64,000 nucleotides of DNA. Origin: Mycobacterium sp. 050128. GTDB lineage: Bacteria; Actinomycetota; Actinomycetes; Mycobacteriales; Mycobacteriaceae. The translations under genes were made by a program, and so were the position numbers. The notes beneath the pieces were generated by a model that was not told where the DNA came from, ran no database searches, and worked only from the letters and a program-made list of their open reading frames with translations. Shown here piece after piece: positions 16,124 to 56,674 of the stretch (its first letter is position 1; every line of letters starts with the position of its first letter). The stretch spans positions 2,108,001-2,172,000 of the forward strand of contig NZ_JAZGLW010000001.1 in NCBI RefSeq assembly GCF_036409155.1, read 5' to 3'.

Positions 16124-16221
16124 CACTCGGCCTACCCCCGCCCCCCCGGGGGCCTCTTCTTCGCCGAGTGTGAACCACGCGACGCTTTATCGGCGCGTCG
16201 CGTCGCAGGATGCACACTCGG
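16124..16221. repeat. Hairpin region upstream of DUF559 copy 1
   Basis: Just after fadA6, CCCCCGGGGG at 16143-16152 is a GC-only palindrome. A larger two-part stem follows: CCGAGTGTG (16164-16172) pairs with CACACTCGG (16213-16221), and inside it CGCGACGC (16178-16185) pairs with GCGTCGCG (16195-16202). It may terminate fadA6. The 13 bases CGCCGAGTGTGAA at 16162-16174 recur inverted at 17177-17189 beyond the DUF559 gene. Confidence 0.8.
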
Positions 16222-16256
16222 TGAATGGTGTCGGTGGGTGATGCCAGCATTCGGCC

Positions 16257-17174
16257 GTGGAAGAACACCCGTGGCCATTCCTGGCCTCGGAAGCGCTGGC
16301 CGCGAAAGCTTTGCCGGAGCGGGCCATGCGCGTGTTGTACGAACCCGTCTACCCCGGGGTCTACGCTCCGGCCGGCATCGAGCTGACGGCGATCCAGCGT
16401 GCTACCGCAGCGTGGTTGTAGTCGCGACGTAGCGCGGTCGTCGCGGGCAACTCGGCGGCCGCGTTGCTCGGCACGAAATGGGTGAGTGCGGCGCTCGACG
16501 TCGAACTGGTGCATGACAATCGGCGGCCTCCCAGCGGGATTACGGTGCACACCGATGTCTTGAAACCCCACGAAGTGTTCACCGTCGACGGTGTCCCGGT
16601 CACATCGCCGGTGCGGACCGCCTTCGATATCGGGCGACGGACTACCTCGCGGCTACACGCTGTTCAACGGCTCGATGCGCTGATGAATGCGACGGACGTG
16701 ACACCGACTGACATTGAGGCCGTCATCGCCGGGCACCCCGGCACGCGTGGTCTGACCCGATTCCGCCGAGTAATGCCACTGCTTGACGCAGGCGCGGAAT
16801 CCCCACAGGAGACGCGGACTCGGCTGGCGCTGATCGACGCCGGCTTGCCGAAGCCGCTAACACAGATCCGGGTATCCGACGGGTTCGGCGATTTCGTCGC
16901 CCGTTTAGATATGGGCTACGAGGAGCTTCGCGTCGGCATCGAATACGACGGTCCACAGCACTGGACGGACCGCCAACAGCGTGACCGAGACATCGACCGG
17001 TACAGCGCATTGCACGCTCTGGGTTGGACAGTCGTTAGAGCGAGCAGCGATTTACTTCGATACCGCCAGGGCACCTTCGTCGCCCGGGTCGTCGCAGCGA
17101 TGCAAGCCGCCGGATGGCGCTCCACGGGCCCGACTGTGAACTCTACGACGCCCAGACGGCGTGTTGCGTCGTGA
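16257..17174 (+). pseudogene. AbiEi-like/DUF559 protein, copy 1, with in-frame amber codon
   Basis: Reading from GTG 16257 gives 54 codons (VEEHPWPFLASEALAAKALP and so on), then TAG at 16419-16421, then an uninterrupted frame to 17174. Across the stop the paralogues read WLWTGRRGIVAG (copy 2) and WLWSRRRGVVAG (copy 3), while this copy reads WL-stop-SRRSAVVAG. The TAG therefore replaces a conserved tryptophan by a single base change. The distal part keeps the nuclease-like core LDMGYEELRVGIEYDGPQHW and a C-terminal GWTVVRASSDLLRY. A shortened product could start at TTG 16464, but that would lack the N-terminal domain. It occupies the position of Rv3555c of M. tuberculosis; the fdxB that follows there is missing. 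Confidence 0.82.
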
Positions 17175-17176
17175 GA

Positions 17177-17189
17177 TTCACACTCGGCG
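17177..17189. repeat. Inverted arm downstream of DUF559 copy 1
   Basis: TTCACACTCGGCG is the exact reverse complement of 16162-16174. It begins three bases after the DUF559 stop and lies 23 bases before the convergent ipdC stop. Confidence 0.8.
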
Positions 17190-17211
17190 TCGTGCGCTAG
17201 GCGCCAGCGCG

Positions 17212-18282
17212 CTAACCCTCGATGAACCCGGATGCCGCTTGAAGGTGCTCGATGGCGTCGCGCACGATCGACTCGATCAGCTCGGCGCACGACGGTAGGT
17301 CTTCGAGAATGCCGGCGACCTGACCGGACGCCAGCACTCCGGCTTCGGTGTTGCCCTCAACGAGGCCGGCTTTCAGCAGCATTGGAGTGTTGGCCGCCAT
17401 TACCACCTGCGCCAGGGTCATTTCCTTGCCGTGGCGCATCGCCATGCCGTCTTGGATCATCGACTTCCAGGTCATCCCGGACATCTGCTTGAACTTCGCG
17501 GCATTGCGCACCGCAGCGGTCAAACCCCTTATCGGCGTTCCGCTTTCCAGCTTCTCGACCAGCCCGGTACGCAACACCCGGTGCGGCATGCCGTCGACGC
17601 GCGTGGTGACCACGGTGCCGTCCAGCGCCGACTCCAGGTAGCGGCGCTTCACCGCGTCGGGCACGGTCGAATCCGACGTGAGCAGGAACCGGGTGCCCAT
17701 CGCCACCCCGGCGGCACCGTAGGACAACGCGGCAGCCAGCCCGCGTCCGTCGAAGAAGCCGCCCGCCGCGATGACCGGGATGCCGGTGCCCTTCACGGCG
17801 TCCAGCACCGACGGCAGCAGCAGCGTGGTCGCGACGGGTCCGGTGTGCCCGCCGCCCTCACCGCCCTGGACGATCATCGCGTCGGCACCCCAGCTCGCGA
17901 CCTTGCGCGCATGCTTGGCCGCGCCGATCGACGGGATCACCACCGCCCCGGCCTCTTTCAGGCGGGCGATCAGTTCCTGCTTGGGCGCCAGCGCGAACGA
18001 CGCCACCTTCACGCCCTCGCGGATCATCAGCTCAACCCGGTCGGCGGCGTCCGCCGCGTCGGCGCGCATGTTCACACCGAACGGCTTGTCGGTGGCGGCC
18101 TTGACCTTGCCGATGGCGGTCGCCAACTCGTCCAGCGTCATCGTGGCCGACGCCAAGATGCCGAGCCCGCCGGCATTGGCAGTGGCCGCCACCAACCGGG
18201 CACCGGCCACCCAGCCCATCCCGGTTTGCACCACCGGATGCTCGACGCCGACCAGCTCGGTCAGCGGCGTGCGCAGTTTCAT
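17212..18282 (-). CDS. ipdC: Flavin-dependent oxidoreductase IpdC (nitronate monooxygenase family)
   Basis: Encodes 356 residues of the FMN TIM-barrel 2-nitropropane dioxygenase family. Visible are the N-terminal PLTELVGVEHPVVQTGMGWV, the barrel strand AGGLGILASATM, VQGGEGGGHTG and the phosphate-binding IPVIAAGGFFDGRGLAAAL. IpdC is required for ring C/D catabolism and is thought to act before EchA20. The ATG start at 18280-18282 is preferred; a GTG six bases upstream (18288) is possible. Between it and ipdB lies a GC-rich repeat, so it may be less tightly coupled than ipdA-ipdB. Confidence 0.92.
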   Translation of the reverse strand: MKLRTPLTELVGVEHPVVQTGMGWVAGARLVAATANAGGLGILASATMTLDELATAIGKVKAATDKPFGVNMRADAADAADRVELMIREGVKVASFALAPKQELIARLKEAGAVVIPSIGAAKHARKVASWGADAMIVQGGEGGGHTGPVATTLLLPSVLDAVKGTGIPVIAAGGFFDGRGLAAALSYGAAGVAMGTRFLLTSDSTVPDAVKRRYLESALDGTVVTTRVDGMPHRVLRTGLVEKLESGTPIRGLTAAVRNAAKFKQMSGMTWKSMIQDGMAMRHGKEMTLAQVVMAANTPMLLKAGLVEGNTEAGVLASGQVAGILEDLPSCAELIESIVRDAIEHLQAASGFIEG

Positions 18283-18302
18283 AGCCACCGCCGACGGTGC
18301 AG

Positions 18303-18382
18303 TGGGGGCACCCCCAGCCGCGAAGCGGCGAGGGGGACGAAGCGATGAGGTGGGGGTACCGCCCGCTTGCGGGGGAGAGGCG
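18303..18382 (+). repeat. GC-rich palindromic intergenic element between ipdB and ipdC
   Basis: The stretch contains the inverted pair GGGGGCACCCCC and the hairpin CCGCCCGCTTGCGGGGG, plus CGAAGCGATGAGG at 18338-18350, which is shared with the two 34-base repeats. It resembles the REP-like sequences seen between mycobacterial genes. No coding sense is evident. Confidence 0.65.
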
Positions 18383-18388
18383 GAATGA

Positions 18389-19140
18389 TCATGAACGTAT
18401 CTCTCGGTCGCGCAATGCTTTCGGGTCGATCGTCTCGCGGATCAGGCGCAGTTCCTGGTCGGTCGGCAGCCGGGTTTCCGCAGCGCCGTCCAGGCCATCG
18501 ATCTCGAACGACGTGTTCTCCCGGACCTCGTCGGCCGAAACACCCGGATGCAGCGACACCGCCCGCATGGTGCGGTCCGGTCCGCCGAAGTCGAATACGC
18601 CGAGGTTCGACACCACCCGATAGGTGTTGGTGAACCGGAATGCCGGATTGTCGGCGGCCACTTTGTCCCAGCCGATTCCGCAGACGATGTCTACCTTCTC
18701 GCAGAACACTCGCTCGGAGTGGTTGCCGACCCAGTAACTGGTCGCGTGGTTGATGGCATTGCCCGGCGCGCCGCGGACGCCGAACATCTGGCGCTTGGGC
18801 TGCTGCAGGGGTCCGAACGCCGAGATGTTCTGATTGCCAAAGCGGTCAACCTGATTCGCGCCCATCACCACGTGGCGCCTGCCCCAGGCCAGGGTCTCGA
18901 AGACCCGGCCGAACGGCATCCAGCCCTCGACGTCACCCGAGGCGCCCAGTGCGGGCGTGTCGGCTAGCAGCTGCGCCTCGCCGTCGGTCAGCAGGATGTC
19001 GGGGGAGAACGTCAGCCGGGCCAACCGCGCGCCGACCGAGGCCATGTTCGTCATCGGACTGACCATGATCTCGCCGGCATCCCTGAACAGATCGGCGCAG
19101 GCGACCGCACACACTTCGGCTCGAGTGCTCACGGTGTTTG

Positions 19141-19144
<4 letters not shown>
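18389..19144 (-). CDS. ipdB: Ring C hydrolase subunit IpdB
   Basis: Encodes 251 residues of the class I CoA-transferase fold, beta-type subunit. IpdA and IpdB form a heterotetramer that hydrolytically opens ring C of COCHEA-CoA instead of transferring CoA. Recognisable segments are FSPDILLTDGEAQLLADTP, VVMGANQVDRFGNQNISAFG and TMRAVSLHPGVSADEVRENT. The GTG start at 19142-19144 overlaps the ipdA stop (GTGA), enforcing co-translation of the two subunits. Confidence 0.95.
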
Positions 19145-20021
<877 letters not shown>

Positions 20022-20025
<4 letters not shown>

Positions 20026-20780
20026 GACTTCTCACCCTTCGCCGTACCGGCGAACGCGTCGCGGTGCTCGTCGGAGACCCCGGCGAGGTTGAGCTCGAAC
20101 GTAAAGCCTTGTTCCATACGGTAACTCGAGTTGACCCGCTGCACGTCGATCAAGTTGAGCGCCTCCTTGGCCGCGCGGATCACGCGGGTATCTTTGGCGG
20201 CGATGTCGCGGGCGACTCGCAGAGCGGCCTCGTCGAGCTCGTCGCGGGAGACCACCTCGTGCACCGAACCGAAGTGGTGCAGGGTCGCGGCGTCCACGGT
20301 GGCGGCGGTGAAGAACAACCGCCGCATCATGTGCTGCGGGACCAGTCGCGACAAGTGTGTGGCCGCGCCCAGCGCGCCGCGTTCCACCTCAGGCAACCCG
20401 AAGGTGGCGTCGTCGGAGGCCACGATGACGTCGGCGTTGCCGACCAGGCCGATGCCGCCGCCGACGCAGAACCCGTTCACCGCGGCGATCACCGGAACGG
20501 CGCATTCGTAGACCGCACGGAAGGCGTGGAAGCAGCCGCGGTTGGCGTCGATCAGCGCGGTGAATCCCTCGGTGCGCTGCATCTCTTTGATGTCGACGCC
20601 GGCGTTGAATCCGCGGCCCTCGGCGCGCAGGATCACCGCGTGGGTCTCGGGGTTCGCGCCGGCGGCAGTGATCGCGTCGCCGAGTTCGAACCAGCCGCGC
20701 GACGGGATGGCGTTGACGGGCGGGTAGTTGACGGTGACCGCGACTATGCCCGGCTCTGTGCTGGTGGATGTAATGGTCAA
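20022..20780 (-). CDS. echA20: Ring D-opening crotonase EchA20
   Basis: Encodes 252 residues of the crotonase superfamily. The oxyanion-hole segments are VILRAEGRGFNAGVDIKEM and NGFCVGGGIGLVGNADVIVA. EchA20 hydrolytically opens ring D of HIEC-CoA, the step before IpdAB. The start is TTG 20778-20780 (LTITSTSTEPGIVAV). It is first in the leftward operon echA20-ipdA-ipdB-ipdC, all joined by four-base overlaps down to ipdB. A KstR2 palindrome lies 36 bases upstream, shared with the divergent SDR. Confidence 0.95.
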
Positions 20781-20815
20781 TTGGCACTTCCTCGTGAAGT
20801 TGAGGCCGACTACCT

Positions 20816-20831
20816 AAGCAAGCACTTGCTT
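20816..20831. promoter_or_regulatory. KstR2-type operator between echA20 and the SDR genes
   Basis: AAGCAAGCACTTGCTT, in the 65-base divergent gap, keeps both CAAG and CTTG half sites with symmetrical flanks. It is the most extended of the three KstR2 palindromes in the window. Confidence 0.88.
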
Positions 20832-20845
20832 GGTACGCTAGCACA

Positions 20846-21643
20846 GTGACTCGCGCCGAAGCAGGCCCCCTTTCTGCGGGAGCCATCAATTTAGGATTGG
20901 CCGGGCGGGTGGTTTTGGTGACGGGCGGCGTCCGCGGGGTGGGTGCCGGAATCAGTGCGGTATTCGCCGAGCAGGGCGCGACCGTGGTCACCTGCGCGCG
21001 CCGCGCCGTCGAGGGGCTGCCGTACGAGTTTCACGCCTGCGATGTCCGCGACGAGGACCAGGTCAAGTCGCTGATCGACGCCATCGTCGACCACCACGGC
21101 CGACTCGACGTCGTGGTCAACAACGCCGGCGGATCGCCCTACGTGCCGACCGCGGAGTCCAGCCCGAAGTTCAACCGCAAGATCATCGAGCTCAATCTGA
21201 TTGGTGCGCTGCTGGTTTCGCAGTTCGCCAATGAGAAGATGCAGGCTCAGCCGGGCGGGGGGTCGATCGTCAACATCTGCAGCCTGAGCGGCCGGCGGCC
21301 ATCCCCGGGCACCGGCGCGTACGGTGCGGCGAAGGCCGGCCTGGAAAGCCTCACCCAGACGCTGGCGGTGGAATGGGGACCCAAGGTCCGGGTGAACGCC
21401 TGCGTGGTCGGCATGGTCGAGACCGAACAGGCCGACTTGTTCTACGGTGACGCCGAGTCGATCGCCGCGATTTCCAAGAACGTGCCACTGGGCCGGCTGG
21501 CCAAGCCCGAGGATGTCGGTTGGGCCGCAGCGTTTTTGGCGTCCGACGCGGCGTCTTACATCAGCGGTGCTTCACTCGAGGTGCACGGGGGCGGCGAGCC
21601 GCCGCACTATCTGGCCACCACGAACGCCAGCGCGATCAAGTAG
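20846..21643 (+). CDS. SDR oxidoreductase (Rv3549c orthologue)
   Basis: Encodes 265 residues of the classical SDR family, with VLVTGGVRGVGAGISAVFAE, NNAGG, the catalytic serine in VNICSLSGRR and the YxxxK of GAYGAAKAG. It starts at GTG 20846, 15 bases after the KstR2 palindrome, so the transcript is probably nearly leaderless. It is followed 25 bases later by a second SDR. By regulon membership it should act on a hydroxyacyl-CoA intermediate of ring C/D or side-chain degradation; the specific substrate is unknown. Confidence 0.9.
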   Translation: MTRAEAGPLSAGAINLGLAGRVVLVTGGVRGVGAGISAVFAEQGATVVTCARRAVEGLPYEFHACDVRDEDQVKSLIDAIVDHHGRLDVVVNNAGGSPYVPTAESSPKFNRKIIELNLIGALLVSQFANEKMQAQPGGGSIVNICSLSGRRPSPGTGAYGAAKAGLESLTQTLAVEWGPKVRVNACVVGMVETEQADLFYGDAESIAAISKNVPLGRLAKPEDVGWAAAFLASDAASYISGASLEVHGGGEPPHYLATTNASAIK

Positions 21644-21668
21644 AGGATCCGAGGAGAATGGGCAGCTA

Positions 21669-22574
21669 ATGGGAATAGTCGACGGCCGTGTCGTCATCGT
21701 CACCGGAGCGGGCGGCGGGATCGGTCGCGCGCACGCACTGGCCTTCGCGGCCGAAGGTGCGCGCGTAGTCGTCAACGACATTGGTGTGGGTCTCGACGGA
21801 TCACCGGCAAGCGGCGGCAGTGCCGCGCAGAGCGTGGTGGACGAGATCACTGCTGCCGGTGGCGAAGCCGTCGCCAACGGATCCAACATCGCGGACTGGG
21901 AGCAAGCCGCCGCGCTGGTTCAGACCGCGGTCGACACATTCGGCGGACTCGACGTCCTGGTGAACAACGCCGGCATTGTTCGCGATCGGATGATGGCCAA
22001 CACCAGCGAGGAAGAGTTCGACGCCGTCATCGCCGTACACCTCAAGGGTCACTTCGCCACGATGCGTCACGCCGCGTCGTACTGGCGAGGACTGTCCAAA
22101 GAGGGCAAAACCGTTGACGCACGGATCATTAACACCAGTTCGGGTGCGGGCCTGCAGGGCAGCGTCGGGCAGGGCAACTACAGCGCCGCCAAGGCCGGCA
22201 TCGCGGCCATGACACTGGTCGCCGCCGCCGAAATGGGCCGATACGGCGTGACGGTCAACGCGATCGCGCCGTCGGCCCGGACCCGCATGACCGAGACTGT
22301 CTTCGCGGAGATGATGGCAACGCAGGACCAGGCTTTCGACGCGATGGCACCGGAAAACGTTTCGCCCATTGTCGTTTGGCTGGGCAGCGTCGAATCACGC
22401 GACGTCACCGGGAAGGTCTTCGAGGTCGAGGGAGGCAAGATCCGCGTCGCGGAGGGCTGGGCGCACGGCCCACAGATCGATAAGGGCGACCGTTGGGATC
22501 CCGCCGAGCTTGGGCCGGTCGTTGCCGACCTGCTGGCCAAGGCGCGCCCGCCGGTCCCGGTGTACGGGGCCTAG
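21669..22574 (+). CDS. SDR oxidoreductase, MFE-type (Rv3548c orthologue)
   Basis: Encodes 301 residues resembling the 3-hydroxyacyl-CoA dehydrogenase part of multifunctional enzymes. It has VIVTGAGGGIGRAHALAFAA, the MFE-like VVNDIGVGLDGSPASGGSA, NNAGIVRDRMM and GNYSAAKAGIA. The ATG at 21669 is chosen, with CCGAGGAG about 10 bases upstream; an open frame reaching back to 21447 lies within the previous gene. It is the second gene of the KstR2-controlled rightward operon. Beyond it the order departs from M. tuberculosis, where ddn follows. Confidence 0.92.
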   Translation: MGIVDGRVVIVTGAGGGIGRAHALAFAAEGARVVVNDIGVGLDGSPASGGSAAQSVVDEITAAGGEAVANGSNIADWEQAAALVQTAVDTFGGLDVLVNNAGIVRDRMMANTSEEEFDAVIAVHLKGHFATMRHAASYWRGLSKEGKTVDARIINTSSGAGLQGSVGQGNYSAAKAGIAAMTLVAAAEMGRYGVTVNAIAPSARTRMTETVFAEMMATQDQAFDAMAPENVSPIVVWLGSVESRDVTGKVFEVEGGKIRVAEGWAHGPQIDKGDRWDPAELGPVVADLLAKARPPVPVYGA

Positions 22575-22858
22575 CACGGTCGACAGCCCGGCGGGTAGGC
22601 GCGCGATCGCGCGTCCCTTCGTTAGAGACGATCGAAACGGCCTGCGCGGATCCCTTTGACGAGTCGACGCTATTTCTGGCGGCTCGAACACCAATGTCGT
22701 ATTGTCAGTGGGTCCTTGGTCCCTTCGCTTTGATGCTCAGCAACTCCCGAACTTTGCCGGGACGTCGTCCCTGAAAAACGCGAATACGACGCAATCGTTG
22801 AAATACGGCACGACGGGCGTATCTCGTGCGGCGTGCCCGATTGAAAAGTGGGTCTGTG
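22575..22858. other. Intergenic stretch at the left border of an accessory segment
   Basis: The 284 bases hold no supported gene. The last 100 bases are less GC-rich than the surroundings. I see no KstR or KstR2 palindrome, terminal inverted repeat or tRNA here. It marks the point where the M. tuberculosis-like order stops. Confidence 0.5.
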
Positions 22859-23794
22859 ATGACGCAACCCTTGACCGCCCCAACCCGAGTTGTACGGGAT
22901 TATTTACATAATTCGTTGGCGTGGAATGATTTTCTTGCCCAGGGCGGCCTGGTCGACGGCGACGTCGTCATCGTCACTCCGGTCAAGGCCGGCACGACGT
23001 GGACCCAGCGGATCATCCAGCAGATATTGCATGACGGGGAGGAGACCGAGGGCAGTCTGTCGGACACTTCGCCGTGGCTCGAATCCAGCTGGGGTGATCG
23101 CGACGGGATGCTCGACGTGCTCAAGCGACAGCTGGAGGCGGGCAGCAGGCGAGTCATCAAGTCGCACCTGCCCGCAGATGCCCTGCCTGTTGCCCCGCAG
23201 GCCCGGTACGTGTTTGTCGGCAGGAACGGTAAGGACGCCGCGATCAGTCTTCACAACATGATCTATCACTACTCCGAGTCGACAATGGCGAAAATCAACC
23301 GGATCTACGCCCAGTGGTCGAGTAGTCCGACGCCGTTGGTGATTCCCGAGGATATGCAAGCATTCTTCGATCTGTGGCTCGACACCGGCGGCTATGGCTG
23401 TTCGGACCTGTTCGACATCGTGCGGTCATGGTGGAAGCTGCGCGGCGAGCCAAACGTATTGCACCTGCACTACCGCGAACTCACGGACGACCTCACCGGT
23501 CAGATCGCCCGGATCGCCGCGTTCTTGGGTATCGACCCCGCGTCGTTGCGCATGGACGTCATTGCCGAGCATTGCTCGTTCGACTATATGAGCGGCCGGG
23601 CGGAAAAGATGGCGCCGTTCAACGGAGCGCACATGTCCAGCGCCAAAGCCTTCTTCGCCAAAGGGCCCAAGCGCGATTACCGCGACGAGCTCACGGCCGC
23701 GCAAATCGCGCGCTTCGACCAGGTCGCATTGCACGAGCTGGGCGTGCCGTGCGCGAGCTGGCTGGAAACAGGCGAACTCTCCGTCACCGGCTAA
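22859..23794 (+). CDS. Small cytosolic-type sulfotransferase
   Basis: The 311-residue enzyme belongs to the sulfotransferase family 1 type. The 5'-phosphosulfate loop is VTPVKAGTTWTQ (K43 to W48). The 3'-phosphate region is RYVFVGRNGKDAAISLHNM, and a C-terminal RAEKMAPF/GPKRDYRDEL segment replaces the usual RKG loop. PAPS would be the sulfate donor; the acceptor could be a sterol, phenol or glycolipid and cannot be read. The start ATG 22859 follows an in-frame GTG at 22856. Its 3' end overlaps the convergent exporter gene by 11 bases. It is unrelated in sequence to the other sulfotransferase at 43088. Confidence 0.87.
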   Translation: MTQPLTAPTRVVRDYLHNSLAWNDFLAQGGLVDGDVVIVTPVKAGTTWTQRIIQQILHDGEETEGSLSDTSPWLESSWGDRDGMLDVLKRQLEAGSRRVIKSHLPADALPVAPQARYVFVGRNGKDAAISLHNMIYHYSESTMAKINRIYAQWSSSPTPLVIPEDMQAFFDLWLDTGGYGCSDLFDIVRSWWKLRGEPNVLHLHYRELTDDLTGQIARIAAFLGIDPASLRMDVIAEHCSFDYMSGRAEKMAPFNGAHMSSAKAFFAKGPKRDYRDELTAAQIARFDQVALHELGVPCASWLETGELSVTG

Positions 23795-25992: not shown

Positions 25993-26891
<899 letters not shown>

Positions 26892-34146: not shown

Positions 34147-34158
34147 CCCTTTTCCCAT

Positions 34159-34216
34159 CGCGAGCGCCCGGCTAGCGGGGCGCTCGCGGCACAACGCCCG
34201 GCTAGCTGGGCACTCG
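34159..34216. repeat. Palindromic repeats upstream of DUF559 copy 2
   Basis: CGCGAGCGCC (34159-34168) pairs with GGCGCTCGCG (34179-34188) around a GCTAGC-containing loop. The 27 bases 34161-34187 recur exactly at 35092-35118. A weaker second hairpin with GCCCGGCTAGCTGGGC follows. It may also terminate the ltp2 operon. Confidence 0.85.
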
Positions 34217-34260
34217 GCGGCTGAAGTGACGTCGGTCGTAGGGCATGCGACGCTGCGGCG

Positions 34261-35106
34261 ATGCGCGAGCCATTTGTCGGGAGCGAAGCCGTCGCCTGTG
34301 GACTACTGACCAAGAGCCAGTTGGAAACGCGCCACGTCCGGCTGTTTCGCGGAGTCTACATCGACCGCGATGCTGAGCTCACTGCCGCGGTACGCGCCAA
34401 GGCCGCCTGGTTGTGGACCGGCCGCCGGGGAATTGTGGCAGGGTTCTCGGCCGCCGCACTGCACGGAAGCAGATGGGTCGATGACAGGAGAGCTGTGGAG
34501 ATGATCCACAACTACCACCATTGCCCGGCAGGGATACAGCTGCATAGAGACGTCGTCGGATTGGATGAAATCGACATGATAGGCGGTGTAGCTGTTACAT
34601 CGCCGACGAGAACAGCGCTGGACCTCGGCTGCTGGTATCCGACGACGACCGCGGTTGCAGGTATCGATGCGTTGGCCAAAGCGGCAGAGGTCAAAGCAGC
34701 CGACGTCGAGCTGTTGGCCCGCAGGTATGCGGGACGCCGGGGCATCGCGCGAGCACGCCGGGCCGCGGACCTGTTCGATGCCGGGGCGCAGTCGCCGAAA
34801 GAGTCGTGGCTTCGCGTCGTGCTGATCGAGGCGGGCCTGCCGCGGCCACAGACACAGATCCCGGTGCTCGACGAGTTCGGCGGTGTTTTCGCGTATTTGG
34901 ACTTGGGGTGGGAACACATCAAAGTCGCTGTGGAATACGACGGAGAGCAGCACCGTAATGATCGTCGGCAATACACCTGGGACATACGACGACAGGAACG
35001 ACTAGAGCGTCGCGGCTGGATAGTCGTACGGGTGGTCGCTGGGGACCGGCCTGGCGACATCGTTCGCAGGGTTCGCTCCGCCTGCGCTGGCCGAGCGCCC
35101 GGCTAG
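34261..35106 (+). CDS. AbiEi-like N-terminus plus DUF559 nuclease-like protein, copy 2
   Basis: Encodes 281 residues. Residues 1-80 (MREPFVGSEAVACGLLTKSQ onward) resemble the winged helix of AbiEi-type antitoxins, with GVYIDRDAELTAAVRAKAAW and FSAAALHGSRW. The C-terminal 80 residues match the DUF559/very-short-patch-repair endonuclease fold: YLDLGWEHIKVAVEYDGEQH and RRGWIVVRVVAGDRP. Biochemical function is unknown, and no cognate toxin gene is adjacent. Its last codons and TAG stop lie inside the downstream palindrome. It lies where M. tuberculosis has a PPE gene. The paralogues here are at 16257 and 55712. Confidence 0.82.
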   Translation: MREPFVGSEAVACGLLTKSQLETRHVRLFRGVYIDRDAELTAAVRAKAAWLWTGRRGIVAGFSAAALHGSRWVDDRRAVEMIHNYHHCPAGIQLHRDVVGLDEIDMIGGVAVTSPTRTALDLGCWYPTTTAVAGIDALAKAAEVKAADVELLARRYAGRRGIARARRAADLFDAGAQSPKESWLRVVLIEAGLPRPQTQIPVLDEFGGVFAYLDLGWEHIKVAVEYDGEQHRNDRRQYTWDIRRQERLERRGWIVVRVVAGDRPGDIVRRVRSACAGRAPG

Positions 35107-35146
35107 CGGGGCGCTCGCACTCTTGGGCCCGGCTAGCCGGGCGTTC
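35092..35146. repeat. Palindromic repeats downstream of DUF559 copy 2
   Basis: Bases 35092-35118 are identical to 34161-34187 and overlap the end of the DUF559 gene. A second GGGCCCGGCTAGCCGGGC-like hairpin follows to about 35146. The pair sits between convergent genes and could terminate both. Confidence 0.85.
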
Positions 35147-35168
35147 GGCACAAAACGCGCCGAAGGCA

Positions 35169-46688: not shown

Positions 46689-46698
46689 ACCATCGGGA

Positions 46699-48740: not shown

Positions 48741-48821
48741 GGGAACCAGGAGGATACCGCGCGACGTTGCACGCGCACAGGACGTTCCCGGTGAATTCCG
48801 GGAACCGGGTTAGGCGAGGAC

Positions 48822-49225: not shown

Positions 49226-49229
<4 letters not shown>
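48822..49229 (-). CDS. SnoaL/ketosteroid isomerase-like protein
   Basis: The 135-residue protein has the NTF2-like cone fold: N-terminal helix REAVGARDKQAWLAVFTDDA, VEDPIG, HRGRDAISAFWDKAIAP and a C-terminal GKLVALRAYWEMD. Acidic residues D-A-I-V-E-D sit where isomerases and epoxide hydrolases keep theirs. The GTG at 49227-49229 overlaps the ltp3 stop as GTGA, so it is translated behind ltp3; the longer frame to 49268 is inside ltp3. Steroid isomerase or binding activity is inferred from fold and context only. Confidence 0.82.
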
Positions 49230-50418
<1,189 letters not shown>

Positions 50419-50419
<1 letters not shown>

Positions 50420-51483
50420 CAGTTCTTTCCTTCCATGACCGCGACCAGGTTCTGTTGCAGCGCAGGTCCGCTGGTGGCGTGCGCCAGCACCCGATTCGCA
50501 GAACCGTCCCAGATGTGTTGTGCGGCAAATCCGATGCGCTCGAGACCGGCGACGAACATGGGGTTGGCCGACAGCGCACCGCCGGACGGATTGACTTTCG
50601 TCTTCCCAGGGATCCGAATGGCGTCCGCCAGGATCAGGTGCTGGTGGGTGAACGGCGCATGGATCTCGGCGACGTCGAGGTCGGCGGTGGTGCCGCCGGT
50701 GGCCGCCTTGGTCGCGGCCCGCGTCGACGGAGAGTCGGTGAGGTCGCGCGCACCGAGCACCGGGGTTTCGATGCGATGCTCGATTCCGGTTATCCAGGCC
50801 GGGTTTTCGCGCAACTCGCGCGCGCGGTCGTCGGCGGCCAGCACGATCGCGGCAGCGCCGTCGGTGATCGGTGCGATATCGTGCCGTCGCAGCGGGTCGG
50901 CGAAGAAGGGCCGCTCCAGCAGGTCTTCGACATTGACCGCCGATTCCACCTTGTCGACCCGGCGGGCGTTGGCGAATGAATCGAATGCGACTCGGGCCAT
51001 CTGCATTTCGCTCCACTTGCCGGAGTCGAGGCCCATCCGCGCCTGCAGTCCGGCCATCGACACCGAGTCCGGCCACAGCGGCGCGACGGTGTACGGGTCG
51101 GTCTGCCGGGAGAGGATCTGGCGCAGGATGCCGGCCGAGGACTTGCCGAAGCCGTACACCAGCGCGGTGTCCACCTCGCCGGTCAGGATCTTGATGTAGG
51201 CCTCGTAAAGGGCCCAGGCCGCATCCATCTCGACGTGCGACTCATTGATCGGCGGGACGGCACCGATCGAGTCGATGGCCGAGATGAACGAAAAGGCCCG
51301 TCCGGCAAGGTAATCGGACGATCCGGAGCACCAGAAGCCGATGTCGGTCCGGGCGATGCCCAGCTCCTCGTAGAGCTGGGCGAAACACGGAATCAACATC
51401 TCGACGCCGTTGGTGGTGCCGTCAGTGCGGCGGACATGCGGGGCGTGGGCAAAGCCGACGACCGCAACATTGCGTTCGCTCAT
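50419..51483 (-). CDS. ltp4: Lipid-transfer/thiolase-fold protein Ltp4
   Basis: The 354-residue partner of Ltp3 has thiolase fold with FWCSGSSDYLAGRAFSFI, ITDGAAAIVLAADDRARELR and NPSGGALSANPMFVAGLERI. The ATG is at 51481-51483. It is shorter than Ltp3, and both lack the standard thiolase active-site cysteine context. Its reaction is inferred from orthologues. Confidence 0.93.
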
Positions 51484-51498
51484 GTGCAGGTAAGCCCT

Positions 51499-52494
51499 TT
51501 ACAGGTGGTGCTTGTAGGTGTCGTACTCGGCGTCCGGTTCACCGGTGGGCCGAAAGTACTCGATGTTGTCGATGCCAAATCCCCATTCCTCCCGGGGCCT
51601 CCACACCGCTTCCACTCGCATGCCCATCCGCACCTCGTGCGCGTCGATGTCGGCGACCAGATGCAGAAACGGGATGTCGGCGCCGTCCAGCAGCACATAA
51701 GCGGCCACATAGGGCGGCTTGATGCGCTGTCCCTGGAACGGGATGTTGATGATCGCGAACGTCGTGACGGTGCCCTTGTCCGGCAGCTCGACGAACTCGG
51801 TCGTGGGCTGGCCGGTGGCCGGGTCCGCGCCGTGCGGCGGGAAGTACACCTTTCCGTTCTTCCCGGTGCGGGCGCCCAGCAGCTTGCCCTCCGCGATGGC
51901 GCGCAAGTATGCGCTCTCTTCGTGCGACGCGGTGTGCTGGATCGTCAGCGAGACCGGCGTGACGATCATCGTGACCGGGTCCTGGTCGCTGGAAGTCGGG
52001 TCGGCGACGGGTTCTTCCTCCGAGCCGAGCGCGAAGTAAGCGATGTCGGTGATGGCGCCCACCGTCTCGTCGGCCCAGTGCACATGCACCCGAGCGCCGG
52101 TCTTGATCTTGTCCGGTGTGCCGGCGTCGACGGCGTGGATCAACGGGGTGTCGGCGCCGTCCAGCTTGATCAGGGCCCAGGCGAACGGCTTATCCAACGG
52201 CTGGCCCTCCAGCGGGTCGGCCTGCCAGGTCCAGGACACCACGGTGCCGACGGGTGACACCGGTACCATCTCGCCCAGCGGTTCGTAGGTAACCGGGTCG
52301 TATTCCGCCGGTGGCACATGCACCCGGCCATCCGATCCGCGCACCCCGAGGACGCGGCGCTCACGCAGTGCGGTGAAGAAATTGCTAAGCGTGGTACCGA
52401 CTGAACGGGTGTAGTCGAAGGCCAGAGTTAACGGCGCTGAGAGGGGCGGCTCGGAGTGATCGATCGTGGTCGGGCCGCTCGAAGTGGCTGTCAC
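51499..52494 (-). CDS. Double DUF35 OB-fold protein (Rv3521 orthologue), likely Ltp3/Ltp4 partner
   Basis: The product has about 331 residues with two OB-fold DUF35 halves. One carries LGVRGSDGRVHVPPAEYDPV, the other LLGARTGKNGKVYFPPHGAD. The zinc-ribbon cysteines are absent. DUF35 domains dock thiolase-like retro-aldolases, as ChsH2 does for Ltp2, so it probably forms a complex with Ltp3/Ltp4. The start chosen is GTG 52492-52494 (VTATSSGPTTIDHSEPP), 9 bases from the KstR palindrome. Frames reaching 53643 run through the operator and are rejected. Confidence 0.88.
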   Translation of the reverse strand: MTATSSGPTTIDHSEPPLSAPLTLAFDYTRSVGTTLSNFFTALRERRVLGVRGSDGRVHVPPAEYDPVTYEPLGEMVPVSPVGTVVSWTWQADPLEGQPLDKPFAWALIKLDGADTPLIHAVDAGTPDKIKTGARVHVHWADETVGAITDIAYFALGSEEEPVADPTSSDQDPVTMIVTPVSLTIQHTASHEESAYLRAIAEGKLLGARTGKNGKVYFPPHGADPATGQPTTEFVELPDKGTVTTFAIINIPFQGQRIKPPYVAAYVLLDGADIPFLHLVADIDAHEVRMGMRVEAVWRPREEWGFGIDNIEYFRPTGEPDAEYDTYKHHL

Positions 52495-52503
52495 GCCATC
52501 GAG

Positions 52504-52517
52504 TAGAACAGGTTCTA
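52504..52517. promoter_or_regulatory. KstR-type operator for the DUF35-ltp4-ltp3 operon and the LLM gene
   Basis: TAGAACAGGTTCTA has perfect half sites with AG as the centre. It lies 9 bases from the DUF35 gene start and 58 bases from the divergent oxidoreductase gene. Confidence 0.87.
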
Positions 52518-52575
52518 AGAACCGTTTCAACATCGGGTAGTGGTCGGGTCCGTTCTGGCCGGGAAAGGCGGAGAC

Positions 52576-53616
52576 ATGAAGCTGGGTCTGCAGCTGGGAT
52601 ATTGGGGCGCTGCGCCGCCGGAGAACCACGGTGAGCTCGTCGCCGAAGCGGAGGCCGCCGGATTCGACGCCGTGTTCACCGCCGAGGCATGGGGTTCGGA
52701 CGCCTATACACCGCTGGCCTGGTGGGGTTCGTCGACGCAACGGGTGCGGCTTGGCACTTCGGTCGTGCAACTGTCCGCGCGGACCCCGACGGCATGCGCG
52801 ATGGCCGCACTCACTCTCGATCACCTTTCCGGTGGCCGGCACATTCTCGGGCTCGGGGTGTCCGGTCCGCAGGTCGTGGAGGGCTGGTACGGCCAGTCGT
52901 TCCCCAAGCCACTGGCCCGCACCCGTGAGTACATCGACATCATCCGCCAGGTGTGGGCCCGCGAGGCGCCGGTGACCAGCGACGGCCCCCACTACCCGCT
53001 GCCTTTGAAGGACGGGGCCCGGCAACCGGTTACCGGCCTGGGCAAGCCGCTCAAGCCGATCACCCACCCGCTGCGCAGCGACATCCCGATCATGCTGGGC
53101 GCCGAGGGACCGAAGAACGTCGCGCTGGCCGCCGAGATCTGCGATGGCTGGCTGCCGATCTTCTACACGCCGCGGATGGCCGACACCTATAACGAGTGGC
53201 TGGACGAGGGCTTCGCCCGGCCGGGTGCGCGACGCAGCCGTGCGGACTTCGAGATCTGCGCGACGGCCAACATTGTGATCACCGAGGACCGCAACGCCGC
53301 ATTCGCGGCCATGAAGCCCTACATCGCGCTCTACATGGGTGGGATGGGCGCCGAGGACACCAACTTCCACGCCGATGTGTATCGCCGGATGGGCTACTCC
53401 GAAGTGGTCGACGATGTCACCAAGCTGTTCCGCAGCAACCAGAAGGACAAGGCCGCCGAGATCATCCCCGACGAAGTCATCGATGATGCCGCGATCGTGG
53501 GCGACGTCGACTACGTCCGTAAGCAGATCAAGGCATGGGAGGCGGCCGGCGTCACGATGATGGTCGTCTCCGGCCGCAGCGCGGAGCAGGTCCGGGAGCT
53601 TGCCACGCTCGTCTAG
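52576..53616 (+). CDS. F420-dependent LLM-class oxidoreductase (Rv3520c orthologue)
   Basis: The 346-residue luciferase-like TIM-barrel protein has MKLGLQLGYWGAAPPENHGE, TSVVQLSARTPTACAMAAL, the F420-type LGLGVSGPQVVEGWYG and IPIMLGAEGPKNVALAAEIC. Such enzymes use F420 for hydride transfer. The substrate is unknown. The ATG at 52576 follows GGCGGAGAC; the GTG further up (52540) is less likely. Co-regulation with ltp3/ltp4 suggests a step in side-chain metabolism. Confidence 0.88.
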   Translation: MKLGLQLGYWGAAPPENHGELVAEAEAAGFDAVFTAEAWGSDAYTPLAWWGSSTQRVRLGTSVVQLSARTPTACAMAALTLDHLSGGRHILGLGVSGPQVVEGWYGQSFPKPLARTREYIDIIRQVWAREAPVTSDGPHYPLPLKDGARQPVTGLGKPLKPITHPLRSDIPIMLGAEGPKNVALAAEICDGWLPIFYTPRMADTYNEWLDEGFARPGARRSRADFEICATANIVITEDRNAAFAAMKPYIALYMGGMGAEDTNFHADVYRRMGYSEVVDDVTKLFRSNQKDKAAEIIPDEVIDDAAIVGDVDYVRKQIKAWEAAGVTMMVVSGRSAEQVRELATLV

Positions 53617-53635
53617 ACAGTTCTTGCTACATGTC

Positions 53636-53649
53636 GAGAACACGTTCTA
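53636..53649. promoter_or_regulatory. KstR-type operator upstream of the decarboxylase-cyp142 operon
   Basis: GAGAACACGTTCTA differs from the perfect KstR palindrome only at its first base. It lies 10 bases before the ATG at 53660. Confidence 0.83.
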
Positions 53650-53659
53650 GATTGACCGG

Positions 53660-54376
53660 ATGACTGCGTCGCAGCACACCATCGCGGGCACCGTCCTCAC
53701 CATGCCGGTGAGGATCCGCCAGGCAAATCAACACATGGCGATGTTCTCGGTGAACGCCGACGCCGCCCAGCACTTGATCGACTACAGCGGCCTGCAGGTC
53801 TGCCGATACCTGCCCGGGCGCGCGATTGTGGTCCTGATGCTGATGCATTACATCGACGGCGACCTGGGCCAGTACTACGAATTCGGCACCAGCGTGATGG
53901 TCAACCCGCCCGGGTCGACAGCGAGCGGGCCGCGCGCCCTGCAGAACGCCGGCGCGTTCATCCATCACCTGCCCGTCGACCAGGAGTTCACCCTGGAGGC
54001 GGGAACCAAGATCTGGGGTTACCCGAAAGTCATGGCGGACTTCACGATTCGCGACGGTCGCCAGTTCGGGTTCGACTGCACGGTCGATGGGCAACTGGTG
54101 ATCGGCATGGACTTCCGTGCGGGCCTGCCGATTCGGTTGACCCCCCGTCAGCAGGCACAGCGCAGCTACTCGCACCGCGACGGAATTACCCGCGAGACCG
54201 CCTTCGAGCACACTCTGGACGGGGTTCGGACACGGCTCGGGGGCGTTCGCGTCCGGCTGGGCGATCACGCCTACGCGAAAGAGCTTGCGTCGCTCGGTCT
54301 TCCGAAGCGCGCGATGTTGTCCAGCTCTGCTGACCAAGTTCAAATGACATTCGGCGATGCCGAGGAGATCTCATGA
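53660..54376 (+). CDS. Acetoacetate decarboxylase-family protein (Rv3519 orthologue)
   Basis: The 238-residue protein has the ADC-family segments FGTSVMVNPP, LEAGTKIWGYPKVMADFTIR and the beta-rich core. The lysines in GTKIWGYPKV are candidates for the Schiff-base residue, but the family includes non-decarboxylating members. Its stop overlaps cyp142 by four bases, so the two are coupled. A role in removing a beta-keto carboxylate from side-chain breakdown is speculative. Confidence 0.85.
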   Translation: MTASQHTIAGTVLTMPVRIRQANQHMAMFSVNADAAQHLIDYSGLQVCRYLPGRAIVVLMLMHYIDGDLGQYYEFGTSVMVNPPGSTASGPRALQNAGAFIHHLPVDQEFTLEAGTKIWGYPKVMADFTIRDGRQFGFDCTVDGQLVIGMDFRAGLPIRLTPRQQAQRSYSHRDGITRETAFEHTLDGVRTRLGGVRVRLGDHAYAKELASLGLPKRAMLSSSADQVQMTFGDAEEIS

Positions 54377-55578
54377 CCCTTCCCGATGTGAAGACCAAAC
54401 CCGACGTCGACTTGACCGACGGCGCTTTCTACGCCGGTGACTCCCGGTCCATCTACAAGTGGATGCGCGACAACGAGCCGGTCTTCCGAGACCGCAACGG
54501 GCTTGCCGCGGCGTCGACGTATCAGTCCGTCATCGAGGCCGAGCGCAACCCGGAGCTGTTCTCGAATGCCGGTGGCATCCGGCCGGACCAGCCGGGCGTC
54601 GAGATGATGATCGAGATGGACGACCCGCAACATCTGTTGCGCCGCAAGCTCGTCAACTACGGGTTCACCCGCAAGCGGGTCAAGAATCTGGAGGCCTCGA
54701 TTACCTCGTTGTGCGACACGCTGATCGACGCGGTGTGCGAACGCGGCGAATGTGACTTCGTCTGGGACCTGGCCGCGCCACTGCCGATGGCGGTCATCGG
54801 CGACATGCTCGGTGTGCGCCCCGAGGAACGCGCGATGTTCCTCAAGTGGTCCGACGATCTGGTCAGTTCCTTGAGTAGCACCGCGGCCGAGGCCGATATC
54901 CAGGTCACGATGGAGGCCTTCGCCACCTACAGCCAATACATGATGGGCATGATCGAGGAACGCAAGAAGGAGGCGACCGACGACCTGGTCAGCGTTCTCG
55001 TGCACGCGGAGGTAGAAGGGTCGCGCCTGGAAGACCACCAGATCGTCACCGAGGTGCTGCTGCTGCTGATCGGCGGCGACGAGACCACGCGGCACACCCT
55101 GTCGGGCGGAACCAGACAACTGCTGCAGCACCCCGATCAGCACAAGCGCCTGGCGGCCGATTTGAGCCTGCTGCCCAACGCGATCGAAGAGATGCTGCGC
55201 TGGACGGCGCCGGTGAAGAACATGGCACGCACGATCACCGCCGACACCGAGTTCCACGGGACCGCGCTGCACGCGGGCGAAAAGATGATCCTGCTGTTCG
55301 AGTCGGCGAACTTCGACGAGAAGGTCTTCGACGATCCGGAGAGCTTCAACATCGAGCGCTACCCGAACAACCACCTCGCGTTCGGCTTCGGCACGCACTT
55401 CTGTCTCGGCAACCAGCTCGCCCGCCTCGAGCTGTCGATCATGCAGACCCGCCTGCTACAGCGCCTGCCCGACATGCGGCTGGCATCCGACGCCGCACTG
55501 CCGTTGCGTCCGGCGAACTTCGTGTCCGGCCTGGAGAAGATGCCGGTCACCTTCACCCCGACCGCGCCGCTTTCGTAG
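54373..55578 (+). CDS. cyp142: Steroid C26/27-monooxygenase CYP142
   Basis: The 401-residue cytochrome P450 has LIGGDETTRHTLSGG in the oxygen helix, EEMLRWTAPVKN with the ExxR and the heme cysteine in FGFGTHFCLGNQLAR. It performs the same terminal oxidation as CYP125, usually with the opposite stereochemistry at C25. The gene is intact here. The ATG overlaps the upstream gene as ATGA. Three copies of a repeated motif follow its stop. Confidence 0.95.
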   Translation: MTLPDVKTKPDVDLTDGAFYAGDSRSIYKWMRDNEPVFRDRNGLAAASTYQSVIEAERNPELFSNAGGIRPDQPGVEMMIEMDDPQHLLRRKLVNYGFTRKRVKNLEASITSLCDTLIDAVCERGECDFVWDLAAPLPMAVIGDMLGVRPEERAMFLKWSDDLVSSLSSTAAEADIQVTMEAFATYSQYMMGMIEERKKEATDDLVSVLVHAEVEGSRLEDHQIVTEVLLLLIGGDETTRHTLSGGTRQLLQHPDQHKRLAADLSLLPNAIEEMLRWTAPVKNMARTITADTEFHGTALHAGEKMILLFESANFDEKVFDDPESFNIERYPNNHLAFGFGTHFCLGNQLARLELSIMQTRLLQRLPDMRLASDAALPLRPANFVSGLEKMPVTFTPTAPLS

Positions 55579-55619
55579 CCCGTTAGCGCTGGCCCTCCCA
55601 CACCCGCCTCTCCCCACCT

Positions 55620-55748
55620 CTTCGCCGAACGTGCTCTGACGGCGGCGGCGCACTTCGCCGAACGTGCTCTGACGGCGGCGCACTTCGCCGAACGTGCTCT
55701 GACGGCGGGGTTTAGGCGATTTTCTCGCGCTGAGAGCACGTTCGGCGG
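55620..55748. repeat. Triple tandem repeat plus inverted arm at the 3' side of DUF559 copy 3
   Basis: The 26-base unit beginning CTTCGCCGAACGTGCTCTGA starts at 55620, 55653 and 55683, that is 33 and 30 bases apart. GAGAGCACGTTCGGCGG at 55732-55748 is the inverted arm and encodes the last residues of the DUF559 protein. The repeats may also terminate cyp142 transcription. Confidence 0.85.
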
Positions 55749-56578
55749 GACCAGGCCGCTGCTACTCGGCGCAGAATGCCGCCCGGCACGTCTTCGGCGG
55801 TAACACGGACGACGACCCAACCGAGATCGGTGGTCACTGCCTCGTAGCGCGCGATGTCCCGATTGAATTGCCGTCGGTCGGTCCGGTGATGATCGCCTTC
55901 GTACTCCACCGCGAGTTTGATGTTCTCCCAACCCATATCGAGCACCGCGACGAGCTCACCGTATTGGCCGTAGACCGGAATCTGGGTCTGTGGCCGTGGA
56001 TATCCGGCCCCGACGAGCAGCAGCCGCACCCACGTCTCGCGCGGTGACTCCGCGCCGGCGTCGACCAGCTTGAGAGTTTGCCTGGCGCGCCGGACATTTC
56101 GATGCCCTTTGTAGCGTTCGGCGATTAGCTCGACGTCGGCGACATCGAGCCTGGTGGCATTCGCCAAAGCGTCGATGGCGGCGACGGCTTTCCCGAGGGG
56201 ATTGCGACAGGCGAGGTCGAAGGCAGTTCGCGCCGGCGTCGTCGCCGACATGCCGCCGACCAGCTGTATCTCGTCGTCGGCGACGCGATCCAACCACGTG
56301 CGAATTCCCGGCGGCGGCCGACGGTGTTGATACAGCAACTGAGCCGGCGCCCGCTGGTCGACCCACTTTGCACCGTGCAGTGCCGCGGCGGATTGTCCGG
56401 CGACGACGCCGCGACGCCGTGACCATAGCCAGGCTGCTCGGGCTCGCATCGTCGCGGTGAGGTCAGTACCGGATGGGACATAGACGTCGGGATGGATGGC
56501 GACGAATCGGCTACGCAGCTGATAGGCCGTCAGGGCACCTGACTTGACGGCCTCGCTGCCGATGAATGGCTCTCTCAC
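55712..56578 (-). CDS. AbiEi-like N-terminus plus DUF559 nuclease-like protein, copy 3
   Basis: The 288-residue protein starts at ATG 56576-56578. The N-terminus MREPFIGSEAVKSGALTAYQ is closely similar to copy 2, followed by AAWLWSRRRGVVAGQSAAAL. The nuclease-like core is VLDMGWENIKLAVEYEGDHH and GWVVVRVTAEDVPG, with the D...E-Y-E/D-G...H arrangement of DUF559. The last residues RRTCSQREKIA are encoded by the inverted repeat arm. It corresponds in position to Rv3517. Function is unknown; no adjacent toxin-like gene is present. Confidence 0.84.
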   Translation of the reverse strand: MREPFIGSEAVKSGALTAYQLRSRFVAIHPDVYVPSGTDLTATMRARAAWLWSRRRGVVAGQSAAALHGAKWVDQRAPAQLLYQHRRPPPGIRTWLDRVADDEIQLVGGMSATTPARTAFDLACRNPLGKAVAAIDALANATRLDVADVELIAERYKGHRNVRRARQTLKLVDAGAESPRETWVRLLLVGAGYPRPQTQIPVYGQYGELVAVLDMGWENIKLAVEYEGDHHRTDRRQFNRDIARYEAVTTDLGWVVVRVTAEDVPGGILRRVAAAWSRRTCSQREKIA

Positions 56579-56608
56579 GGAGGCAGTGTGTCGTCGACCA
56601 CCGACACA

Positions 56609-56674
56609 TGCGCCGAACGTGCTGTCACTGCGAAAAAACAGCCGAAATATCGCAGTGAGAGCACGCTCGGCGCA
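56609..56674. repeat. Long hairpin between echA19 and DUF559 copy 3
   Basis: The 25-base arms 56609-56633 and 56650-56674 pair with two mismatches around a 16-base A-rich loop. The left arm starts TGCGCCGAACGTGCT, the same motif as the tandem repeats on the other side of the gene. It probably terminates echA19. Confidence 0.87.

Follow-up and report, generated by a model that had tools for sequence, protein, structure and literature searches.

Nuclease genes set between their own palindromes in Mycobacterium point to an undescribed enzyme-plus-palindrome genetic element

REPtrons offer a described precedent for an enzyme gene bracketed by palindromes. According to PMC3733652, the enzyme gene is bordered by REPs, which also provide stop codons and lie mostly between convergent or codirectional ORFs; TnpAREP/REP pairs are reported to co-evolve (PMC8266576), and REPs usually number more than 100 copies (PMC2817692). 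The window analysed here, a stretch of 64,000 nucleotides from Mycobacterium sp. 050128, contains three paralogous nuclease genes in a comparable setting, and no description of such a nuclease–palindrome element was found in the papers searched. The anatomy is close to certain: a palindrome of about 62 bp is followed, after some tens of bp, by a gene for a nuclease of about 280 aa and then by a second copy of the palindrome, often lying over the stop codon. Each window gene has a complete, imperfect palindrome of this kind on both sides, with arms specific to that gene, and when folded as DNA these give z values of −3.4 to −8.4. The features are listed in window coordinates, the palindromes without a strand.

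16162..16223, copy 1 left palindrome, 62 bp, arms CGCCGAGTGTGAA.../...GCACACTCGGTG; DNA fold −22.5 kcal/mol, z −3.9
16464..17174, + strand, copy 1 nuclease gene, clean ORF with a TTG start; family match 16275-17168 with one in-frame TAG
17128..17189, copy 1 right palindrome, complete, holds the stop codon; C1:2125131-2125186 corresponds to window 17131-17186; fold z −3.5
34158..34219, copy 2 left palindrome, two nested GCCCGGCTAGC palindromes; fold z −3.4
34261..35106, + strand, copy 2 nuclease gene, 281 aa, intact
35089..35150, copy 2 right palindrome, holds the stop codon; fold z −7.5
55623..55637, + strand, copy 3 extra duplicated arm
55656..55670, + strand, copy 3 extra duplicated arm
55686..55747, copy 3 palindrome at the 3′ end of the gene, holds the stop codon; fold z −6.5
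55712..56578, − strand, copy 3 nuclease gene, 288 aa, intact; AbiEi-like residues 1-173, EDxHD/Vsr-like nuclease 178-281
56611..56672, copy 3 palindrome at the 5′ end of the gene; fold z −8.4

An earlier note on this DNA had described a short repeat pair specific to each copy; the arms do differ from gene to gene, and the pairs are parts of the larger palindromes. A search of the window finds the 13-base inverted pair of copy 1, CGCCGAGTGTGAA, exactly at 16162-16174 (+) and 17177-17189 (−), the right-hand element being a complete palindrome rather than a 13-mer. The 27-base repeat of copy 2 is identical at 34161-34187 and 35092-35118 and acquires one mismatch when extended by one base. The copy 3 pair is also real, with CGCCGAACGTGCTCT at 55623-55637 and a partner carrying one mismatch, although the partner lies at 56658-56672, one base from where it had been placed. 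Reading the window sequence puts the stop codon within the 3′ palindrome in copies 2 and 3, as claimed, and in copy 1 as well. The copy 1 gene itself looks broken because of the single in-frame TAG within its family match. With up to three mismatches the copy 3 repeat has 19 matches (shuffle mean 5.3; 0 of 100 shuffles reach 19), and the copy 2 28-mer is matched in no shuffle. The copy 1 13-mer has four matches at two mismatches or fewer, a count not above chance (40 shuffles reach 4). Two of these four matches are exact. All three copies are intergenic and lie between convergent genes, the six adjoining genes encoding a thiolase, an NMO, a thiolase-like protein, MaoC, a P450 and an enoyl-CoA hydratase; between the palindromes there is only the nuclease gene, and the window matches no known RNA family in Rfam. 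Reading of the sequence places each of the six family members found in the genome between two gene-specific palindromes of about 62 bp.

The proteins match the Pfam profiles DUF559, MTES_1575 (nuclease) and AbiEi_1, in keeping with the DUF559/AbiEi identity first proposed, although copy 3 falls below the Pfam cut-off for all three; PADLOC AbiEi models also match (copy 3, E-value 7e-10). The predicted structure consists of an AbiEi-like half, apparently with the antitoxin fold, and a nuclease domain whose best match is the homing endonuclease I-Bth0305I, and the modelled fold also matches Vsr, TnsA and AbiEi. All 52 proteins compared share E181, D214, H231 and D241, and together with the predicted structure these residues indicate the EDxHD catalytic fold. 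A Foldseek search gave no match at E ≤ 0.001 (the best, Rv2827c, is at 0.007), a sequence search gave no solved homologue at E ≤ 1, and neither Pfam profiles nor fold comparison revealed an HUH Y1 transposase.

The 'DUF559' family is present in 60 of 60 sampled Mycobacterium genomes, at 2-21 copies each. Among mycobacterial loci drawn from the best 80 of 581 relatives, a sample that favours close relatives, 64 of 75 have a palindrome with at least 13 of 16 arm pairs directly beside the gene on one or both sides (upstream in 52, downstream in 44), whereas such a palindrome occurs in 7 of 434 control windows away from the gene; 250-bp bins away from the gene hold 0.00-0.05 palindromes per bin, compared with 0.50 and 0.56. 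In the same best-80 sample 61 of 76 loci have left and right flanks that match each other, as against 0 of 73 control pairs, and the other 15 have no such match. Outside Mycobacterium the flanks match in 31 of 56 loci (controls, 2 of 55) and do not in 25, and 16 of the 31 matching repeats fall short of 12 of 14 positions paired. The earlier note had named two outcomes that would speak against a special association, namely the same hairpins beside unrelated genes just as often and relatives whose flanks are free of repeats; the control windows and the relatives' flanks show neither. Exceptions occur: three of eight genes in G006 have no right-hand hairpin at the threshold used, L259, also of G006, shows nothing convincing, and the left flank of L029, one of eleven elements folded, folds no better than shuffles (z −0.6). 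Loci with too little flank were left out (80 to 76 for flank matching, 78 to 75 for the palindrome count, 61 to 56 outside Mycobacterium), as were L225, L228, L235 and L237, where contig ends made the left and right windows overlap or shift, and L066 and L098, which have broken frames; 40 of the non-mycobacterial loci were a manual choice that followed approximately the order of the matches. The association of gene and palindrome spans the actinobacteria, with a palindrome of about 60 bases in mycobacteria, where many elements end, by reading, in CGCCGARYG-like motifs. When protein segments were compared for the one that might set specificity, partial correlations with arm sequence came to 0.10-0.30 over all pairs and singled out none.

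The window palindromes have further copies elsewhere in the genome that lack the gene, and they recur as families of fixed length. Solo and flanking elements together number 44-57 in each of five genomes (reversed-pattern control, 2-6), and solos are seen at the 3′ ends of genes. Many have no cognate gene in their own genome, and same-genome matching of solos to genes is only partly upheld: in G017, 43 solos average 10.3 against the best flank of an own gene and 9.6 against the best of ten foreign flanks, and for nine of the 43 fewer than 0.5% of 500 draws score as well. The copy 3 arm family has matches in 14 of 60 genomes, with the highest counts in G000 (16, four being the copy 3 flanks) and G017 (13, two being the flanks of a gene), both of which hold a gene flanked by this family. 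G001, G031, G036 and G046 have 5-6 matches each, and the family flanks none of 16 genes from these four, which are part of their gene complement; the reversed control of the pattern matched once (G036).

Sites differ between species in the presence of the gene, its orientation and the palindrome. At one site the gene is present, absent, a remnant or inverted according to species, with no direct homing event seen, and in one presence/absence comparison no target-site duplication was recognised. Phage or plasmid cargo was considered and rejected, the 2 phage-record and 8 plasmid-record matches all being below 60% identity; in two of four plasmid records examined gatA and purB adjoin the gene, and these look chromosomal.

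We favour, at about even odds of being right, a one-gene element in which a dimeric nuclease recognises its own palindromes of about 60 bp, combining a REPtron-like layout with a catalytic fold like that of homing endonucleases; its binding, cutting and mobility are inferred. The mechanism we propose is the best of several. A dimer would sit on the palindrome so that each arm is contacted by one subunit; DNA would be bound in a sequence-specific manner by the AbiEi-like N-terminal half, and nicked or cut near the palindrome centre by the EDxHD/Vsr-like C-terminal domain. Repair of the break from another palindrome-bearing copy could then spread the palindrome to sites with a related one, and might occasionally carry gene and palindromes together to sites already holding a related palindrome. 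Recombination between the flanking palindromes may remove the gene, so that a single palindrome is left, or may flip the gene, which is possible since the ends are symmetric and without direction; protein bound at the 5′ palindrome may in addition act as a repressor of its own gene. By our own reading of the matches this genome holds about 10 solos of the enzyme's own palindrome family, with which an active duplex cutter must coexist, and therefore cutting would be rare, a nick, hairpin-dependent or repressed. Shared surroundings were found for 744 locus pairs (640 in the same orientation), which argues against frequent homing, though the sample favours close relatives.

Coexistence with many solos would be explained if, during replication, the enzyme processed its palindromes in the form of single-stranded hairpins or cruciforms, copying them elsewhere while remaining in place itself. 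The layout matches REPtrons, many genes keep their site across species, and solos at one site vary between species; set against this, the nuclease models with the fold of enzymes that cut duplex DNA (Vsr, I-Bth0305I, TnsA) and not with that of HUH enzymes, and the elements are about 60 bp long rather than the 20-40 bp given for REPs in PMC3733652, so that we regard this route as possible but doubtful. Somewhat more improbable is a purely regulatory arrangement, with the AbiEi-like half a repressor, the 5′ palindrome its operator, the 3′ copy a terminator, the solos a small regulon or neutral leftovers, and the nuclease serving another role, e.g. defence. For AbiEi and Rv2827c, PMC7319586 reports autoregulation by way of inverted repeats at the promoter; here the 5′ palindrome is found immediately before the start codon, and the PADLOC AbiEi matches fit. 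Left unexplained, however, would be why the 3′ end carries these arms too, why each genome holds 44-57 elements, with solos at gene 3′ ends, and why the gene is present, absent or inverted at shared sites.

Terminators are expected between convergent genes, and the earlier note raised them as the plain alternative. On this reading convergent gene ends need hairpins, which small genes inserted there acquire. All three window copies do lie between convergent genes, one convergent site has hairpins that differ between species or, by reading, are absent, and L168 is a gene-less copy 3 site with a plain terminator. As the main explanation we nevertheless think it very improbable, since within the best 80 of 581 relatives palindromes are rare away from the gene (7/434) and gene-specific arms are shared by both sides (61/76 against 0/73), and since fixed-length families would not be expected of terminators, even if hairpins at the convergent site turn over. 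We give equally little credence to hitch-hiking, in which the palindromes would be MITE-like repeats moved by an unrelated transposase with the nuclease gene as passive cargo: palindrome families with no detected cognate gene in their own genome do exist, but each paralogue has its own arms, and as the association spans the phylum, unrelated movers would have needed the same gene family every time.

Extended to the phylum, the self-recognising nuclease we favour becomes a hitherto undescribed class of selfish elements in which an AbiEi–EDxHD dimer reads its own palindrome of about 60 bp, causes palindromes to spread and turn over at gene ends and acquires new targets when both flanks change along with the protein, a proposal that we hold to be as apt to fail as to stand. 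Intergenic hairpins of mycobacteria and other actinobacteria that have lacked an explanation would gain a candidate maker, and a very common gene family a likely role. With so many protein/palindrome pairs matched by nature, DNA recognition and the way it evolves can be tested directly.

With the EDxHD homing endonuclease I-Bth0305I the proteins appear, from the model, to share catalytic fold and residues, and they differ in being encoded by free-standing genes in intergenic gaps, with an AbiEi-like half, two complete flanking palindromes and many solos, homing here being only inferred. Unlike the AbiE type IV toxin–antitoxin system (AbiEi, Rv2827c), they have a fused nuclease domain and repeats on both sides of the gene, and the six neighbours of the window copies are all metabolic genes, with no AbiEii/DUF1814 or other toxin among them; unlike the very-short-patch-repair endonuclease Vsr they have an extra AbiEi-like half and palindromes, and none of the six adjoining genes is a methyltransferase. 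The likeness to REP/RAYT suggested at the outset holds for anatomy, in that the enzyme gene lies between its own palindromes with the stop codon inside, extragenic copies are dispersed (with no resident gene detected for some solo families), and palindromes change with the gene as enzyme and palindrome diverge together. It does not extend to the enzyme, an AbiEi-like protein with a Vsr/EDxHD-like nuclease fold where REPtrons have an HUH transposase, nor to the elements, which are about 60 bp long, show by reading no GTAG or CGTC tag at the repeat end (and no common tag outside mycobacteria), and number about 50 of all families per genome against the more than 100 usual for REPs (PMC2817692). 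If our reading is correct, palindrome-plus-enzyme elements have had at least two origins, each with an enzyme unrelated to the other, and those described here are a nuclease-based counterpart of REPtrons that bridges homing endonucleases and REP elements.

The DUF559/AbiEi-like nuclease family is truly associated with palindromes specific to each gene, strongly so in Mycobacterium and commonly in the rest of the phylum. Its three window copies are each flanked on both sides by complete imperfect palindromes of ~62 bp, of which the short repeats picked out in the earlier note are fragments; the repeat coordinates given there are correct for all three copies, save that copy 3 is shifted by one base.

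16162-16223 and 17128-17189: palindromes of copy 1 (gene 16464..17174, + strand; neighbours thiolase / nitronate monooxygenase)
34158-34219 and 35089-35150: palindromes of copy 2 (gene 34261..35106, + strand; neighbours thiolase-like / MaoC)
55686-55747 and 56611-56672: palindromes of copy 3 (gene 55712..56578, − strand; neighbours P450 / enoyl-CoA hydratase)

The arm sequence is specific to each pair, and DNA folding of the six palindromes gives z values of −3.4 to −8.4. All three copies lie between convergent genes, the palindrome at the 3′ end enclosing the nuclease stop codon in every case. Comparison of the window with Rfam gave no family match. Copy 1 appears from its sequence to be a broken gene, with one in-frame TAG inside the family match (window 16275-17168), and both of its palindromes are complete despite this. 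At 55623-55700 the copy-3 palindrome has its left arm in three consecutive copies.

A profile built from the window copies finds six family members in the 6.73 Mb source genome, of which the window is C1:2108001-2172000, copy 1 being the only one with a stop inside the match. On reading, all six have palindromes with their own arms on both sides (for example GAGACTGCG, GAGTGTGCGTCC and GAGATTGC at the three members outside the window), and an automatic criterion places them on both sides of three and on one side of three. The second palindrome of copy 1 is confirmed by a genome-wide search with a generic pattern; those of L029 and L030 were called by eye only, and the left flank of L029 is no more stably folded than shuffled sequence (z −0.6).

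The nuclease family is present in 60/60 Mycobacterium genomes surveyed, at 2-21 copies each. From 581 relatives in named genomes we took the best 80 for comparison, 78 of which encode a clean protein, mostly of ~280 aa. Among these 80 loci, palindromes number 0.50 and 0.56 per locus in the two 250 bp bins adjacent to the gene and 0.00-0.05 elsewhere. With arms pairing at 13 or more of 16 positions and lying within ~150 bp, a palindrome is found upstream in 52/75, downstream in 44/75 (covering the stop codon in 36 of the 44), on either side in 64/75 and on both in 32/75, as against 7/434 control windows; at 12 or more of 16, the figures are 71/75 on either side and 67/434. Left and right flanks match each other at 61/76 loci but in 0/73 control pairs, and flanks of different loci match in 404/5700 pairs. 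Hairpins are seen at most of the 10 genes of genome G017 and at most of those looked at in G006 (8 of its 12), where the right-hand hairpin is missing at three of the 8 at the threshold used and L259 has no convincing hairpin.

In a sample of the phylum, 73/198 genomes have family matches, five of them Mycobacterium. Outside that genus the two flanks match at 31/56 usable loci versus 2/55 control pairs, and among the 31 the arms pair at 12 or more of 14 positions in 15 (4/183 control windows) and at 11 or more in 25 (31/183). Matching flanks are thus a common though not a universal feature there, and roughly half of them qualify by this test as clear palindromes. Of eight matches in a plasmid collection, four were looked at; in an uncontrolled comparison the flanks match at all four, two Tsukamurella genes among them having palindromes of 60-65 bp. 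Two Tsukamurella 'plasmid' records (L365 and L366), in which gatA and purB adjoin the nuclease genes, look like pieces of chromosome. A locus in a metagenome bin titled Bifidobacterium breve (L074, CAMDFY010000030.1) has nuclease ends near-identical to those of L073, from an 'Actinomycetota bacterium' bin, and its label is probably a binning or naming error.

The co-variation of flanks with protein envisaged in the earlier note is observed: over 2573 locus pairs at different sites, palindrome similarity grows with protein identity (rho 0.17), reaching 14 or more in 0/39 pairs at 40-45 % identity and in 4/5 at 70-80 %. Analysis by protein segment singled out no part as reading the arms. At shared sites the gene and both palindromes may differ amid conserved surroundings, as between copy 2 and L079, where the proteins share 58.7 % identity and the outer flank scores 7682 bits. 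Among loci at the copy-3 site, the nearest relatives, L158 and L159, have nucleases at 70.5 and 76.3 % and neighbour proteins at 92-94 %, which suggests that the nuclease-palindrome unit may evolve fast. Only the nearest relatives point there, because at L160 and L163 the P450 (75-77 %) has diverged at least as far as the nuclease (77.5 and 78.4 %); the enoyl-CoA hydratase is at 90 and 87 %.

Sites that lack the gene also occur. Tracing the copy-3 site through the enoyl-CoA hydratase gave 22 loci, the source genome's included, with the P450 present in 18 and the far side beyond reach in the other 4. Eight of the 18 have the gene (inverted in L159), one has a remnant (L166) and nine have none. 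On reading, four gene-less sites hold a single palindrome (L162, L165, L175 and L177, two with another gene in the gap), L161 has a hairpin of a different family and L168 a plain terminator, and no palindrome or hairpin was noted in L167, L176 or L178. In 3/6 site clusters some members (5 loci) carry the gene in the opposite orientation.

Many elements are solo, with no adjoining nuclease gene. Five genomes have 44-57 elements each, gene flanks counted, versus 2-6 in controls; the source genome has 44 versus 4 with a reversed control. Its solos include, on reading, about ten of the copy-3 family, three of copy 1 and two of the gene at 865166, and others have no cognate gene in that genome. At least 5/12 distinct solo neighbourhoods (13 loci) lie tightly between convergent ORFs, as judged by a crude ORF caller. 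The copy-3 arm is present in 14/60 genomes and is commonest in the two in which a gene flanked by it was seen. In G017, 43 of the 50 elements listed (of 54) are solos. Some solo families match the flanks of a resident gene, as GACTTGTTG does those of the gene at C1:42124 and GCGGCCAGCCGCAC those of the gene at C23:87021, an arm that also flanks genes in other genomes; further families match none. Similarity of these solos to flanks of their own genome shows a modest excess (10.3 versus 9.6 for foreign flanks), and for 9/43 fewer than 0.5 % of draws are equally good. Families with no cognate gene detected in the same genome, such as GAAACTGTTGCG in G017 and GACTTGTTG in the source genome, are possibly traces of lost genes.

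One solo site has hairpins that vary by species and, on reading, are absent from some; in an alignment of four, the 62 bp element is absent from two relatives and swapped for another hairpin in a third. A further mycobacterial hairpin family (GAGCAGACGCAAAA...; L161 near 1401-1456, L190 and L191) occurs at 3/216 loci, none of them nuclease loci. In genome G046 a ~1.3 kb insertion separates the arms of a solo palindrome in L347 (C1:3493000-3496500). One of its ORFs resembles a transposase, by eye of the IS30 type. Arm positions and common inner sequence suggest the same insertion in L346 (C1:4388000-4391500), and an IS may target the hairpin loop.

We read the arrangement as a one-gene element whose product would recognise its own palindromes, with duplex cutting, folded-strand cutting and binding alone as candidate actions. 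The accessible parts of the open-licence literature on DUF559, AbiEi, RAYT and Vsr-like proteins yielded no description of it. The main text of a 2025 REP survey mentions neither mycobacteria nor RAYT (PMC12306157), and a 2008 survey describes structured stem-loop families of M. tuberculosis, Myt-1 and Myt-8, with no function given in its passages on them (PMC2267715). The closest likeness in layout is to REPtrons (REP palindromes with a RAYT/TnpAREP gene), although defining features of REPtrons are absent, as are defining features of AbiE, a type IV toxin-antitoxin; with homing endonucleases of the EDxHD type (I-Bth0305I) the catalytic fold is the sole common feature. We therefore rate the element as a new category.
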